DNA from: a virus
DNA length: 46,220 nt
Strand: one strand, 5' to 3'
Virus record (IMG/VR): IMGVR_UViG_3300009011_000021
Span: 1 to 46,220 of that record
A model generated the notes under the pieces. The model ran no database searches and had not been told where the DNA came from. It saw only the letters and a list, made by a program, of their open reading frames with translations. Position 1 is the stretch's first letter, and every line of letters begins with the position of its first letter. The translations under genes were made by a program, and so were the position numbers. Shown piece after piece: positions 48 to 46,118 of this stretch.

Positions 48-123
48 GCCGATATAGCTCAGTTGGTAGAGCAGCGCATTCGTAATGCGAAGGTCGTAGG
101 TTCGACTCCTATTATCGGCACCA
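48..123 (+). tRNA. thrW: tRNA-Thr (anticodon CGT)
   Basis: A 76-base cloverleaf with CCA encoded. The acceptor stem GCCGATA pairs with TATCGGC, the D stem is GCTC/GAGC, and the anticodon loop carries CGT at 81-83, reading ACG (Thr). The TTCGACT T-loop is present. The last 46 bases are the prophage attachment core, so integration rebuilds an intact tRNA. The 47 bases to its left are chromosomal leader, consistent with the proA-thrW junction of E. coli, although proA itself lies outside the window. Confidence 0.96.
78..123. repeat. attL core (46-bp direct repeat, left copy)
   Basis: The sequence from the anticodon loop of tRNA-Thr through CCA matches 43160-43205 base for base. The flanking bases differ (C vs A on the left, G vs T on the right), which fixes the ends. 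P22 is known to share a 46-bp core with thrW. Confidence 0.95.
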
Positions 124-38445: not shown

Positions 38446-40560
38446 ATGACTGTATCATCCGCTCAAAGCTACATTGAATATAATGGAGACGGAGTAACCA
38501 AAACATTCCCGATCCCATTTTATTTCATTCTTAGTACAGATATTTCTATAACCACTACTGATGCAAACGGTACAGTAACGACGCTGATTAACGGAACAGA
38601 CTACGCAGTCATAGGTGAAGGCAGCCAGTCTGGTGGTGCAGCAACTCTGAATGTGGCTCCAGCTTCAGGGGTTTTGGTGACAATCTACCGAGACCCGCCG
38701 GTAACTCAAGAGACTGCTTATTACGAAAACGGCAAATTCCCGGCGAAGTCTCATGAGAAAGCTTTGGATAAGCTGACCATGATCATCCAGTCCCTTCTCG
38801 TAAAATTAAAAAATTATAACAGCAGGTCAGTAAAGGTACCGGAAGCAGGTAATTGGGTAGCGCCTAAAATTGCGGACAGAAAGAACAAAGTTTTCACTTG
38901 GGATGACTCTGGTTATCCTGTTGCTACATTGCCGCCATCCGGGTCAGCAACTGATGTTCTGATCGAGCTAGCAAAGCCTACTGGCGCAACGAAAGTTAAT
39001 ACATCTAGCGGACAAACCACCCAGGCATTGTTTGACCAATTAACTGATGGAACATTTAATCTTAAGTATCGTAATTACACTGTATACGACCGCTTGGATG
39101 AAGAGATAAGCGTAGGTGCTATTGCCGGAGTTGACGTAACAGGCACCACTGACAGTACCACCGCTTTGCAGAATTTCTTTGATTTAATCAATTCAAATAA
39201 TATGCGAACCGTTGTGCGATTACCGCCCGGAACTTATCTTACATCAGGTATTACTCTCAGTAATACAAGCCTGGTTATCAAAGGTTCGGGTATGTACGCT
39301 TACGGGCAATCCACGACAAAATTCAAAGCATCTGCCGCAAATACGACAATTCTAACCCTTACAGGTAATGGTTGCCGTGTAGAAAATTTGATGTTTGAGG
39401 GGTATGAGGCTGTTGCTAATTTCGGAGCCACCGAAACTTGTACAGGAATAAGACTTCAAAGGCCTAGCGGTGCTGATATTGATAGCTACATTATTAATAA
39501 TGATTTCTTTGGACTTAAAAATGGTGTGATGGCCTATGGGCGAAATGTAACGCAGCGCGATAATTTATATTCTCACGTAGCATTCCCTATAACACTTAGT
39601 TATGTGTCCGGGCAGCAATTTCGTGGGCATATCGTTGAAAGTAATCGATTCCATTCTTGTGGTGGACTCGGAGCCGGTACTGACGCAACTTTAACGAATT
39701 CAGTATGTATCACTATTCTCACCAACACCACCGCTGGCACACTGGCAGATAACTATGCTGGCAACATCAGCATCACAAATAACAAATGCGATGGGGGATG
39801 TTATCAATTTTTCAAAGGCGCGTTTCATCGGTCTAGCATTATGTCCAATAACGATATCTTTCGTTGTGGGGGCGCTAACGCTATCGTTATAGATATTGAT
39901 AACAGTGCCACCGTTGCAAACACGGATTATGACACCTTTATTCTTTCTAATAACGTACTCGCGTCTGATTTACCTATAGCAACCCCCCAGCAGTTTCCTG
40001 ATTACGCGCTGCGTTTGACAGGAGTGCGTGGTGCCGTATTGACTGGAAACGCATGGTCTAAACTCGGTAAGCACGCAATCATATTCAACAACACTGCTGA
40101 CATCATCATGTCGGGAACGCAGATTAAAAACCCGAACATGAATGTCGCAACGAATGGAGTTGTGTTTAATGCAATAGAGATAGCAAACGGTGGTAATAAT
40201 ATCCAAATCCTGGGTCTTGATGTGCGCTGTACTCAGGCCGCATCGCAAATCCAGTTTGTGATTAACAATGCTAGTGCAACCAACGTAATGGTTGACGATG
40301 TGGCTGCTAACGGTGCTTCAGCCTATTATAATGAGGGATCAACCGCAAGGACGCACGGAATATTAAACTTCGGCAATGGACGAAGAAAGGAGGTTTACGC
40401 AACAGCAACCAGTACCCTAACCACTGGTAACTTTGCCGTCGGGGATATCTGTTGGTTTACGACCCCGGCTGCATCTGGTACTGCATATATTGGAGCAGTA
40501 TGCGTTACCGCTGGAACAGGGGCTGCGGCGGTTTGGCGTAACTTTGGAGCTTTAGTTTAA
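38446..40560 (+). CDS. Tailspike with T7-type adaptor N-terminus and beta-helix
   Basis: 704 residues. The N-terminal ~140 residues are a T7 gp17-like adaptor (YIEYNGDGVTKTFPIPFYFI, FPAKSHEKALDKLTMIIQSL). A pectate-lyase-type beta-helix follows from ~220 (TGTTDSTTALQNFFDLINSN, RLPPGTYLTSGITLSNTSLV, ITNNKCDGG and similar coils). It ends with a common receptor-binding C-terminal piece (GTAYIGAVCVTAGTGAAAVW). It probably binds and cleaves O-antigen. GGAG precedes the ATG. Confidence 0.9.
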   Translation: MTVSSAQSYIEYNGDGVTKTFPIPFYFILSTDISITTTDANGTVTTLINGTDYAVIGEGSQSGGAATLNVAPASGVLVTIYRDPPVTQETAYYENGKFPAKSHEKALDKLTMIIQSLLVKLKNYNSRSVKVPEAGNWVAPKIADRKNKVFTWDDSGYPVATLPPSGSATDVLIELAKPTGATKVNTSSGQTTQALFDQLTDGTFNLKYRNYTVYDRLDEEISVGAIAGVDVTGTTDSTTALQNFFDLINSNNMRTVVRLPPGTYLTSGITLSNTSLVIKGSGMYAYGQSTTKFKASAANTTILTLTGNGCRVENLMFEGYEAVANFGATETCTGIRLQRPSGADIDSYIINNDFFGLKNGVMAYGRNVTQRDNLYSHVAFPITLSYVSGQQFRGHIVESNRFHSCGGLGAGTDATLTNSVCITILTNTTAGTLADNYAGNISITNNKCDGGCYQFFKGAFHRSSIMSNNDIFRCGGANAIVIDIDNSATVANTDYDTFILSNNVLASDLPIATPQQFPDYALRLTGVRGAVLTGNAWSKLGKHAIIFNNTADIIMSGTQIKNPNMNVATNGVVFNAIEIANGGNNIQILGLDVRCTQAASQIQFVINNASATNVMVDDVAANGASAYYNEGSTARTHGILNFGNGRRKEVYATATSTLTTGNFAVGDICWFTTPAASGTAYIGAVCVTAGTGAAAVWRNFGALV

Positions 40561-40561
40561 C

Positions 40562-40586
40562 TAAAGGGCGGCTCACGCCGCCTTTT
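40562..40586. terminator. Bidirectional terminator between tailspike and wzy
   Basis: AAAGGGCGGC-TCAC-GCCGCCTTTT: GC stem with an A run on the left and a T run on the right, so it can end transcripts from both sides. It overlaps the stop codon of the minus-strand membrane gene. Confidence 0.75.
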
Positions 40587-41913
40587 CTCCTTGATGCCGA
40601 GCGGACCATGATGCCAGTATATAAAACACGAATGCGAATAGACCGACAAGAAACTTTAGTGAGAACAAATAGAAAATCTCACCCATTGTAACCGCTCTGA
40701 ATATCGAATCCATTATCTTGACACCGAAGAATATTAGGATCACATCAGATATCAAAATAGCCCTATAAAAAATGTGATATCCAATTCCTACAATGATACC
40801 CAGGATCATTGCTGGTATCACAGACAATGGGTATCCAAAGAAATATATTAGATTAACAGGGCTTCCCATCGTCATTGTGATGCCTTTGTCAGCAAACCAT
40901 TGGAAGATAGACGGAGGGCTAATGACTGACATTAGATAGAATATTCCAGTTGAATATTCATCACCATTACCTATGCCAATGAAGTTTCTTAATATCTCTC
41001 CAGTTCCTTTGCTGCTCATATCTGATGAGTTATCAAGGGCCCACCACATCTGGCCTTGCAATACAATCCTGTCAACCAGTCGGTCAATGCCGCTTCCAGC
41101 TCCGCTAATCGCAATGTAACTTAGGTATGATGCAGTCATCATCGCACCAAGAAACATAACTGCTATAAATAAAAATCTTGTACTAAAGATCAACTTTCCA
41201 ATGTTAACTCTTAAAAGAATCACGACAGGGATGATGAATGTCATTGTCGCATAGAGCATACCGGAAAATTTATCTCCAACGGAGAATTGCGCAAGCAATG
41301 AAATCACAAAAAGAAAAATATAGCGTCTCTTGCGAGATAGCCCATACGCGAGACCAATGAACACAGTGAATTGTGAGAGTAGGAATTTTACATACTCCGC
41401 CCATTTTGGCGCAATGTTTGCCCAGTAATAATACCTGTCTACGCCATAGTCATTTGGGTGGCCATACCTCATGTGAACGAAGAACAGGATTGCTGTGAAC
41501 ACAGTGAATGCTATGACTACGCAGTGAAGAAGTATTTTGTTCAGGCCTACTGACAAGCCAAACCTAACGGTGTTTACTCTACTAAGATACTTGAACGTAA
41601 AGAATGAAAAGAAGAATATCACAAAGCAAAGTGACATTATCCTTGAGGTGGCCCCACTAAGGCTTGAGTAATACTTTACCTCGCTCAACCATTGCCCTGA
41701 CTCGGCAATGGCGCAGCAAATTCCAGCAGTAGTGAAGGCAAGCATAACCTGTGCTGACAGCACCCCGTAAGAGGAATTCCTTCTGATAAAGTAAATGCAA
41801 CTAGAAAGCCACAGAGCTATCGAGGTATAATTTAAAAGAGAAACGCCATCAGAAAATGCAACGTTAGCCAGTATCAGGCAAAGCCATAAGCTAACAATTA
41901 AAGAAATGCCCAT
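40573..41913 (-). CDS. Putative O-antigen polymerase (Wzy-like) membrane protein
   Basis: 446 residues with about 11-12 hydrophobic helices, beginning MGISLIVSLWLCLILANVAF. A larger hydrophilic loop lies at ~255-315 (DRLVDRIVLQGQMWWALDNS to DEYSTGIFY), as in Wzy polymerases. No glycosyltransferase motif is visible. Codon and base use is A+T-rich relative to the virion genes. It shares an operon with a GT52-like protein. Converting phages such as epsilon15 and D3 are known to carry a replacement polymerase, so the best inference is alteration of the O-antigen linkage. A flippase or unrelated transporter is less likely. Confidence 0.7.
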   Translation of the reverse strand: MGISLIVSLWLCLILANVAFSDGVSLLNYTSIALWLSSCIYFIRRNSSYGVLSAQVMLAFTTAGICCAIAESGQWLSEVKYYSSLSGATSRIMSLCFVIFFFSFFTFKYLSRVNTVRFGLSVGLNKILLHCVVIAFTVFTAILFFVHMRYGHPNDYGVDRYYYWANIAPKWAEYVKFLLSQFTVFIGLAYGLSRKRRYIFLFVISLLAQFSVGDKFSGMLYATMTFIIPVVILLRVNIGKLIFSTRFLFIAVMFLGAMMTASYLSYIAISGAGSGIDRLVDRIVLQGQMWWALDNSSDMSSKGTGEILRNFIGIGNGDEYSTGIFYLMSVISPPSIFQWFADKGITMTMGSPVNLIYFFGYPLSVIPAMILGIIVGIGYHIFYRAILISDVILIFFGVKIMDSIFRAVTMGEIFYLFSLKFLVGLFAFVFYILASWSARHQGEKAA

Positions 41914-41940
41914 TATGTTAATCTCTTATTTTTATTTTAA

Positions 41941-42891
41941 TCACAGGCTTATGGCACTCACGCCGCACCGTGATGATAAAACATCAGAACATGAGTTAAC
42001 CTCATCAAGCAGTAGGCTTGAAATAACTGGACGCACTACAACCCCATCAACATCTATTGATATGTTTTGCAGGTAATCAGCGAATCCATATATGTTGACA
42101 ACAGCATATCTACCGCGAAGAGACTCAAGATATTCAACGTCGATTAGATCATTTTTTACGATGAAATCACTAAACAAGCTGTCATCTTTACAATCTGGTG
42201 AAGTGTAAATTGTGTCACCGTTAGCGGATTTCAAAAAATCCAAAACTCTCATTTTGAGTGCAGTTGCATCATTTTTATTATTGCAATAATCAACGTAATT
42301 AACACCATTGAATAAATGGCATTCATCTTTCTTTTTTTGTTCTTCGTTGAAAATTTTTATGTGTGCAACATTGCTCATCGCATTTTCATATTTTGTATAA
42401 ATTGAATAATGAACTTGCGACTCATTCTTTACCTTTTGCATGTCATATCTATTGCCATTTAACCTATGGAGGATATTCAACACCAGAGCCCGAGCACTCC
42501 CTTTTTTCTTGTCATTAAAGTAAGAGCTTCCAGGCAAAATGTTGGCCGTACCATCATCAAAAGTCTTCAGTGTAGCACCATTGGTAAAGCTGATTGCGTA
42601 ATGAGCAAGGCTGTCATCAATGCATGCCACAAAAATTTCGTCTACAGGGCCAATCATGGAGATGAATTTACGCATTCCCCGCACGCCAGAAATGGAGCGC
42701 GCCTTCTCGATGAGGGTCGCATACTTCACCAGAGATGAAACCTTAACTAAGGCGGAGTTTGCTTTCGCATTGAAACTGTCGCATACGTAGAGCACAGCGC
42801 AGTCGTGCAGTTGGATAGATTCAGTGGCAATGATTCTTGAGGCTATGAGCACCTGTAAAGGCGTGTTACACAAAAAAAGTTTCACGGGCAT
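41941..42891 (-). CDS. Glycosyltransferase family 52-like protein
   Basis: 316 residues. The N-terminus LFLCNTPLQVLIASRIIATE is the TPLQ start typical of GT52 (sialyl- and related lipooligosaccharide transferases). LKTFDDGTANI near residue 115 matches the conserved FDDG segment of that family, and TSPDCKDDSLFSDFIVK near 225 could be the nucleotide side. No membrane helix, so probably cytoplasmic at the inner membrane. It is first in the operon, 27 bases from the polymerase gene. Base content is low-GC, pointing to transfer. Donor sugar cannot be read off. Confidence 0.72.
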   Translation of the reverse strand: MPVKLFLCNTPLQVLIASRIIATESIQLHDCAVLYVCDSFNAKANSALVKVSSLVKYATLIEKARSISGVRGMRKFISMIGPVDEIFVACIDDSLAHYAISFTNGATLKTFDDGTANILPGSSYFNDKKKGSARALVLNILHRLNGNRYDMQKVKNESQVHYSIYTKYENAMSNVAHIKIFNEEQKKKDECHLFNGVNYVDYCNNKNDATALKMRVLDFLKSANGDTIYTSPDCKDDSLFSDFIVKNDLIDVEYLESLRGRYAVVNIYGFADYLQNISIDVDGVVVRPVISSLLLDEVNSCSDVLSSRCGVSAISL

Positions 42892-43159: not shown

Positions 43160-43205
43160 ATTCGTAATGCGAAGGTCGTAGGTTCGACTCCTATTATCGG
43201 CACCA
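43160..43205. repeat. attR core (46-bp direct repeat, right copy)
   Basis: Identical to 78-123. It carries the 3' part of tRNA-Thr, from the anticodon loop to CCA, without the 5' half, so it is not a functional tRNA. Confidence 0.95.
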
Positions 43206-44249: not shown

Positions 44250-45932
44250 ATGGCAAAGCAATTTATGTTGATGGAACCAAAAAATGAGAATTTTAATGAA
44301 TTAATCGGTGGGCCTAACAAATATATTGTGCCTAGATTCCAGCGAGACTATGCATGGGATGTAGGACAATGGGAGGATTTATGGGGAGATATAAATTCTC
44401 TTGATGATGAAGGTTTTCATTATATGGGCTATATTGTCCTTCAACAAAAAGAACAGTATCAGCATGAAATTATAGATGGGCAACAACGCTTAGTTACGTT
44501 ATCGATTATAGTTCTGGCTGCAATGAAAGCGATCAAAACTTTAATTGATAATGGGGAGGATGTTCAGGGCAATACTGAGCGACTCGATGGTATAACTCAG
44601 AATTTTGTAGGAAGTAAGAACTTCGTTACGCTTAAAGTAATTAATAAATTAGAACTAAATAGAAATAATAAAAGTTATTTTCAAAGAATGTCATCTCATT
44701 TAGAGGCTCAAAACTCTCGCGGTATAACATCAACTAATAAATTGATACGCAAGTGTTTTGACTTTTTCTGTAAGAAAGATTACGGCAAAACAGGTGCGGA
44801 GATTGCTCAGTTTATTGCAGATTTTTCTTCAAGTATGATTTTTACAAAGATAATTGTACAAGACGATCTTAATGCCTATAAAGTTTTTGAAACTTTGAAT
44901 GCGAGAGGGGTCCAATTGTCAACTCCGGACCTACTAAAAAACTATTTGTTTTCAATTGTGACGAAAGATGATCAAATCGGAGAAGAAGAGCTCAACGATT
45001 TGGACGAGCAATGGTCAGAAATGATTGTCCAACTTGGAGAGATCAATGTTTCTGATTACATTAGATATCACTATAATTCACAGAGAAGAATGGTTACTAA
45101 GAACAACCTTTTTTCCTCAATGAGAAAAATATTAACGAAACCGGAAGAAGCGTATCAGTATTTGAAGTCATTAATTTACTACTCACCTATCTATGCATCA
45201 TTGATCAATCCCAATGATGCATGGTGGGGGGATCAAGATGTGAAATACAGAAATGTATTGCACTATCTTAATGGTATTAGATTATTTAATATCAAGCAAC
45301 CCCTAACAATATTCCTAGCTGCCTTTGGTAATTTTTCTCCAGAAGAGTTTGTTAAGCTCGTAAAATATATATATGTATTATCTATTCGATATAATATTAT
45401 CTGCCATTTATCACCTAGTGAACAAGAGAATATTTATAATCAAATCGCGAACAAGGTTTATAATCGAGAGTTCTTAAGAGCTAGTCATGTGAAAAATAGC
45501 GAAGAATTCAAACGTTTGTATCCTGATGATAATGCTTTCTTTAATGCTTTTGAATTTCATAGAATGCCAAGTAGACAAACAGAGAAAAAAATACGTTTTT
45601 TTCTTTCTGAAATTGAAGGCTATTTAGGTAATCCATGTGATTATGAAAAAACGACATTAGAGCATATTTGCCCTTATCATCCAGAAAAAGATTGGAGCGA
45701 ATCTTTTGGTGAAGGAATTAATGATGTAAAAGATAGGCTTGGAAACATGATTTTAATGGATAAAGATAATTTAAAACGCTCATCCTTTGAAGAGAAGAAA
45801 AAAGAATATACAAAATCCGGATATAAGTTGGCCTTAAAAGTGACAGAATATGCAGAGTGGAATTTAGATTCTGTCAATGATTTTCAAAAGTGGATGTCAC
45901 AACAAGCAGTTAACGTTTGGAAGGTTGATTAG
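44250..45932 (+). CDS. Fused GmrSD-type defence nuclease (DUF262 + DUF1524/HNH)
   Basis: 560 residues. N-terminal DUF262 (GmrS-like): VPRFQRDYAWDVGQWEDLW, GYIVLQQ, the nucleotide-binding/DNase IDGQQRLVTL (75-84) and FETLNARGVQL (~213). C-terminal DUF1524 (GmrD-like) HNH: TLEHICPYHPEKDW (H~472), then DRLGNMILMDKDNLKRSS (N~500). Type IV enzymes of this class cut modified phage DNA and use NTP hydrolysis. GmrS and GmrD are separate in the founder system and fused here, as in many later-described members. Base content is markedly A+T-rich. It is a single gene with its own terminator. Confidence 0.9.
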   Translation: MAKQFMLMEPKNENFNELIGGPNKYIVPRFQRDYAWDVGQWEDLWGDINSLDDEGFHYMGYIVLQQKEQYQHEIIDGQQRLVTLSIIVLAAMKAIKTLIDNGEDVQGNTERLDGITQNFVGSKNFVTLKVINKLELNRNNKSYFQRMSSHLEAQNSRGITSTNKLIRKCFDFFCKKDYGKTGAEIAQFIADFSSSMIFTKIIVQDDLNAYKVFETLNARGVQLSTPDLLKNYLFSIVTKDDQIGEEELNDLDEQWSEMIVQLGEINVSDYIRYHYNSQRRMVTKNNLFSSMRKILTKPEEAYQYLKSLIYYSPIYASLINPNDAWWGDQDVKYRNVLHYLNGIRLFNIKQPLTIFLAAFGNFSPEEFVKLVKYIYVLSIRYNIICHLSPSEQENIYNQIANKVYNREFLRASHVKNSEEFKRLYPDDNAFFNAFEFHRMPSRQTEKKIRFFLSEIEGYLGNPCDYEKTTLEHICPYHPEKDWSESFGEGINDVKDRLGNMILMDKDNLKRSSFEEKKKEYTKSGYKLALKVTEYAEWNLDSVNDFQKWMSQQAVNVWKVD

Positions 45933-46017: not shown

Positions 46018-46118
46018 GATTGGGGGTACTTTTGGGGGTACCTTAGAAAACTCAATGAATATAACTAACTGAAAATAAACTGGATTTTTAGCGATGCTAT
46101 GTTCCTATTATCGCACCA
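46018..46118. other. Degenerate att site with paired GGGGGTAC motifs
   Basis: TTGGGGGTAC and TTGGGGGTACC (46019-46042) are direct repeats of the kind found next to attachment cores of P4-family integrases. Seventy bases on, TCCTATTATCG-CACCA (46103-46118) matches the tRNA-Thr 3' end with one base lost. The rest of the window (46119-46220) shows no gene I can support. Confidence 0.5.

Follow-up and report, generated by a model that had tools for sequence, protein, structure and literature searches.

The window, i.e., the whole 46,220-base stretch of the virus record analyzed here, contains a complete prophage, and beyond the prophage only flank sequence is present. The attL core is the 3' part of a tRNA-Thr gene of the thrW type (78-123, plus strand; tRNA-Thr predicted by ARAGORN at 48-123), and a perfect 46-nt repeat of this thrW 3' end forms the attR core at 43160-43205 on the same strand. 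A prophage integrase with matches to PHROG 10426 and 1 is encoded at 138-1301 on the minus strand. The left half of the window is similar to P22/lambda-like phages of Enterobacter, Salmonella, and Citrobacter. Several genes of the window encode virion proteins that match PHROG 332, 376, and 684, and family names together with gene sizes indicate virion proteins of the epsilon15 type. Just outside attR lies a GmrSD/DUF262 gene (PADLOC HEC-06; 44250-45932) of 33-34% G+C, and a gene with 76% identity to it is found in a Rac-like prophage of E. coli. The thrW end recurs as an incomplete 16-nt copy at 46103-46118, so thrW may harbour a small defence element in tandem with the prophage.

Between the tailspike gene and attR, the prophage carries a cassette of two minus-strand genes for proteins of 446 aa (40573-41913) and 316 aa (41941-42891), spaced by 27 nt. 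Sequence matches assign to the tailspike (38446-40560, plus strand) an epsilon15-type head-binding N-terminus, with residues 1-180 matching epsilon15-like phages, and, starting at about residue 175, a receptor-binding beta-helix; over residues 174-704, identity to the tailspikes of four other phages is 45-67%. The cassette is directly beside the tailspike gene and convergent to it, as are the conversion genes in epsilon15. A previous sequence-only reading had described a minus-strand, A+T-rich operon between tailspike and attR. Location, strand, the G+C content of the cassette stretch (40-44% vs. about 49% for the virion genes), and the 46-nt attR repeat bear out this description; as for the operon, it is solely the 27-nt spacing that suggests co-transcription of the two genes. 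Both open reading frames are uninterrupted (446 and 316 codons). No strong promoter match was found in a search of the cassette, and a terminator-like GC hairpin at 40567-40582 (minus strand), where the tailspike and wzy genes converge, comes from a hit count not above chance. Phase variation via paired GATC sites was considered and rejected, as GATC is rarer than chance in the cassette region.

In epsilon15, the plus-strand tailspike gene is followed by convergent wzy-beta and iap, the latter encoding a 66-aa inhibitor, and in relatives of epsilon15 this slot is occupied by oac (phiV10), an acyltransferase gene (Tyrion), or gtrABC (BUCT554). The gtrABC genes of BUCT554 and of contigs L057 and L060 share the slot with the cassette of the window, and L057 and L060 also share its tailspike family. 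GtrABC systems, which are found in P22 and Shigella phages as well, modify side branches of the O-antigen in the periplasm via an undecaprenyl-linked donor and leave the polymerase unchanged. The cassette of the window differs from these systems in gene content: as claimed before, gtrA, gtrB, and a type-specific gtr are absent from its slot, and neither of the two genes there is a gtr gene. In place and orientation it equals wzy-beta and iap of the Salmonella phage epsilon15, and a phage polymerase is paired with a second gene in epsilon15 and in Pseudomonas phage D3, as in the window. D3 brings a new linkage between O-antigen units, together with an inhibitor, and epsilon15 likely acts by a similar mechanism (PMC4815439). 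However, the epsilon15 polymerase is unrelated in sequence to the 446-aa protein, the partner gene encodes a 316-aa homologue of glycosyltransferase family 52 (GT52) instead of a 66-aa membrane inhibitor, and the cassette is without an O-acetylase, unlike the epsilon15/D3 system. The suspicion that a GT52-type partner does not belong to the epsilon15 scheme was correct; the epsilon15 slot holds wzy-beta and iap. No iap-like small membrane protein was recognised by eye among the open reading frames listed in the window's slot; the cassette would therefore work like the epsilon15 module without being a copy of it.

The 446-aa protein matches the Pfam family DUF6418 (PF19982; E 1.6e-22, 80 bits at a cut-off of 25). 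DUF6418 is the sole family matched by this protein and by its seven aligned relatives, and it carries no functional name in any library. The 446-aa protein did not match any named polymerase family or solved structure, similarity to epsilon15 Wzy-beta was undetectable with the two sequences not alignable, and the RX10G motif of Pseudomonas Wzy is represented by one chance-like instance. Wzy proteins are very divergent in sequence. In a simple hydropathy scan, about nine segments were hydrophobic and two loops were large (70 and 103 residues), which is consistent with the polytopic architecture with two large loops of a putative Wzy. The same scan found no hydrophobic segment in the 316-aa protein, in agreement with the earlier description of one polytopic and one cytosolic product. 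Profile search and structure prediction, proposed in the sequence-only reading as checks on both proteins, succeeded in part. The GT52 profile was matched by the smaller protein, whose N-domain is also predicted to adopt the fold of a known family member (see below). For the larger protein, the profile search returned DUF6418 and no named Wzy family, and its AlphaFold model (three sequences) had a pLDDT of 39, too poor for a fold comparison.

Genomic context of DUF6418 homologues was more informative. A search profile built from three phage DUF6418 proteins recovered five full-length homologues from 392 Enterobacteriaceae genomes, and a sixth came from an order-level search. All five enterobacterial homologues are encoded within or beside O-antigen clusters, the majority of which carry pse (pseudaminic acid) genes; the homologues in pse clusters are 35-40% identical to the 446-aa protein. 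In genome G268 the gene order is galF, pseB, C, F, G, H, I, wzx, GT52, DUF6418, GT2, DUF4422, glf, wbaP, gnd, with pseBCFGHI confirmed by TIGRFAM equivalogs above their cut-offs. In G261 and G045, where pse genes were identified by inspection, DUF6418 follows wzx. The pse cluster of G273, also identified by inspection, has no wzy of its own, and DUF6418 is located outside of it, just after gnd-wzz (L035 7984-9318, L049). G053 encodes DUF6418 in a neuB/A/C-type cluster. Apart from WbaP, Wzx and the DUF6418 protein are the only polytopic proteins of the G268, G261, G045, and G053 clusters. As Wzx is already accounted for, the DUF6418 protein is left as the sole candidate Wzy of these Wzx/Wzy clusters, and the phage-encoded 446-aa protein is by context predicted to be a Wzy, too. 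A transporter or flippase, named beforehand as the identity that would overturn the polymerase assignment, is suggested by the lack of a match to any polymerase family, yet we consider it very unlikely: the host clusters already encode Wzx separately and would have no Wzy if DUF6418 were not one, the two large loops are as in Wzy, and the slot is one used for O-antigen conversion. A complete-looking pseudaminic-acid O-antigen cluster, annotated with pseB-C-F-G-I, DUF6418, glf, and wbaP, was additionally noted on two Klebsiella plasmids (L068 884-14677, L069 3884-17677), one of which is typed as conjugative and indicates a mobile O-antigen locus.

The DUF6418 gene was without a match in annotated phages at the DNA or protein level, as were both cassette genes in E. 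coli genomes. A scan with the tailspike's receptor-binding part located it in five viral contigs, four of which include sequence beyond the tailspike gene. Two of these phages, one with a siphovirus-type tail (L001/L058) and one with a myovirus-type tail (L002/L061), have DUF6418 in the slot; these copies are 85% and 62% identical to the 446-aa protein and adjoin homologous tailspikes. By inspection, the slot of L057 (67% identical tailspike) and L060 contains gtrA-gtrB-gtr. One tailspike family is thus coupled to either DUF6418 or gtrABC among phages. The myovirus-type proviruses L060 (6149-11612) and L002/L061 are 83-90% identical in DNA and their tailspikes are 85% identical, but their cassettes differ, which points to conversion modules having been swapped in nature while the receptor specificity stayed the same. 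Such swapping behind one tailspike family suggests that the cassette is coupled to the polysaccharide read by the tailspike. In the tree, the phage DUF6418 proteins form a single clade (support 100/100), which is close to the pse-cluster proteins of G273 and G268.

The 316-aa protein matches Glyco_transf_52 (PF07922; E 3.2e-14, 53.3 bits at a cut-off of 26.1). Its best PDB match by sequence and by fold is the lipooligosaccharide sialyltransferase NST of Neisseria meningitidis (2YK4-7), the fold search resting on the N-domain, where the structure model is reliable over about 110 residues only. The closest homologue found is the GT52 protein encoded beside DUF6418 in the G268 pse cluster (30-32% identical), and the pair in G268 (L036:8757-11073) has the same order as in the phage, with both families represented and the DUF6418 proteins 35% identical. 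Unlike the phage pair, it is chromosomal, located between galF and gnd with a full pse pathway, and its GT52 has an intact HPR. In the GT52 tree, the 316-aa protein is on a long branch (1.85) and its placement is not firm. A GT52 gene was also seen in the LPS core (waa) locus of Salmonella, in subspecies houtenae and likewise in diarizonae and arizonae (L006 12013-12936; L007, L008 7995-8936), with a record note calling it alpha-2,3-sialyltransferase-like.

Signatures of GT52 are a D/E-D/E-G motif and an HP motif, the latter in the CMP-binding domain; HP takes part in binding CMP-sialic acid in a bacterial polysialyltransferase, and His280 of HP in NST is the proposed general acid (review PMC4202792). 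The GT52 landmarks that had been recognised from the letters, a TPLQ start and FDDG, are indeed present in the 316-aa protein, FDDG (residues 111-114; 42550-42561, minus strand) agreeing with the D/E-D/E-G signature and being invariant in alignment A3. The HP motif, which had gone unmentioned, is absent: Ser231-Pro232-Asp233 (42193-42201, minus strand; codons TCA CCA GAT) replaces His-Pro-Arg at the site of NST His280, where HP is present in all 22 other GT52 family sequences checked. In the sequence alignment, Val252 (42136-42138, minus strand) is found at the family Glu position (NST Glu300), and the Ser that follows this Glu in most members is replaced as well. In an alignment of 14 GT52 sequences, two of them of the same gene, the phage protein deviates at none of nine conserved N-domain columns and at three of four conserved C-domain columns; from these column counts, the probability that random loss would confine the three changes to the C-domain is 4/286 = 0.014. 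A frameshift or single sequencing error was rejected as the cause of the HP loss, since His to Ser and Arg to Asp each require at least two base changes relative to the observed codons and the alignment runs to the C-terminus; with the frame intact as well, an error of this kind is unlikely. Owing to the missing HP motif, we refer to the protein as a GT52 homologue and not as a GT52 sialyl- or pseudaminyltransferase, and with three of the four conserved donor-domain positions substituted, CMP-nonulosonate transfer cannot be assumed. The earlier proposal that the lysogen adds a new sugar through this GT52 activity is consequently not supported.

What the GT52 homologue does was weighed among several readings. 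An active CMP-nonulosonate transferase that adds a pseudaminic or sialic acid residue to the host unit would agree with the full-length GT52 alignment, the retained FDDG, and the nearest homologue being located beside DUF6418 in a pse cluster; the replacement of an HP motif kept by all 22 other members by SPD and of the family Glu, together with the Ser following in most members, makes this reading distinctly unlikely. Our first choice, held tentatively, is that the protein transfers a sugar from another donor. That it blocks the host's transferase is also possible, though we hold this with less confidence. In a specific form of blocking, which we regard as rather unlikely, the protein would be a pseudo-glycosyltransferase in place of Iap that acts by occupying the acceptor or by pairing with the host GT52, such that the host unit remains incomplete and the altered unit is polymerised by the phage Wzy. 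The intact open reading frame, its location in the iap position upstream of wzy, and the replacement of His, Arg, and Glu in the donor domain with all nine conserved N-domain columns retained, beyond what the above chance calculation would predict, are compatible with such a pseudo-enzyme. However, retention of the N-domain could simply reflect folding requirements, the use of another sugar donor would alter the same residues too, and the argument is based on one sequence. We know of no precedent for a glycosyltransferase acting as such a decoy, and a nonulosonate transferase made catalytically dead that blocks the host's own enzyme, replaces Iap, and is paired with a matched polymerase appears improbable.

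Alternatively, only the polymerase might matter, with the GT52 gene a decaying passenger acquired together with wzy from an O-antigen cluster. The long branch in the GT52 tree fits this possibility, as does the restriction of the gene to one known phage, with none detected in scans of other viral contigs. The contigs of both other DUF6418 phages end at the start of wzy, i.e., before the GT52 position, so that the region upstream of wzy is absent from them; the start of L001 agrees with the 27-nt spacer of the window at 16 of 27 bases, a mere hint that L001 may begin just after a GT52 stop codon. Nevertheless, 316 intact codons and substitutions of conserved positions that are clustered in the donor site and not spread over the protein argue against decay, which we deem unlikely.

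Taken together, the cassette is probably a serotype-conversion module of an epsilon15-like temperate phage with the DUF6418 protein as replacement Wzy, as the sequence-only reading had anticipated, in the slot that wzy-beta and iap occupy in epsilon15. After integration, the lysogen would make the phage Wzy, which would compete with or replace the host Wzy and join the host O units, probably containing a nonulosonate (pseudaminic acid), by a different linkage. The GT52 homologue would work in the cytosol on the lipid-linked O unit that Wzy joins, so that unit and linkage fit. The changed polymer would be neither recognised nor cut by the tailspike, whereby sister phages would be excluded and progeny kept off debris. 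Polymerase activity, linkage change, and exclusion are what we infer from sequence and context. Replacement of the O-antigen polymerase by the phage protein is a well-supported prediction. In Acinetobacter baumannii, a prophage wzy is sufficient by itself to alter the linkage (PMC9241936, PMC13228068). According to these sources, wzyPh genes of A. baumannii prophages (K127/KL127, KL58) change the linkage, KL58 combines pseudaminic acid units and a tailspike with the prophage wzy, and wzyPh, like DUF6418, is related to a host-locus wzy and present in several unrelated phages. The A. baumannii system concerns the capsule and that of the window the O-antigen, and the available text of the two sources describes no glycosyltransferase homologue beside the prophage wzy.

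Conversion by a prophage wzy and the conversion slot itself are already known. DUF6418 was not mentioned in the literature searched; as far as this literature shows, its predicted function as a nonulosonate O-antigen polymerase is new, and so is a putative conversion cassette of a phage that includes a GT52 homologue with lost donor-site residues. DUF6418 gains a testable role, namely that of a polymerase of pseudaminic-acid O-antigens, and the loss of donor-site residues in the GT52 homologue poses the question of a new donor vs. a decoy enzyme. Behind a single tailspike family, phages appear to exchange entire conversion modules (gtrABC or a new polymerase), and this makes it possible to ask directly whether conversion hides the cell from the phage's own tailspike. 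Prophage genes of this kind would go unnoticed if serotypes were predicted from O-antigen loci alone.
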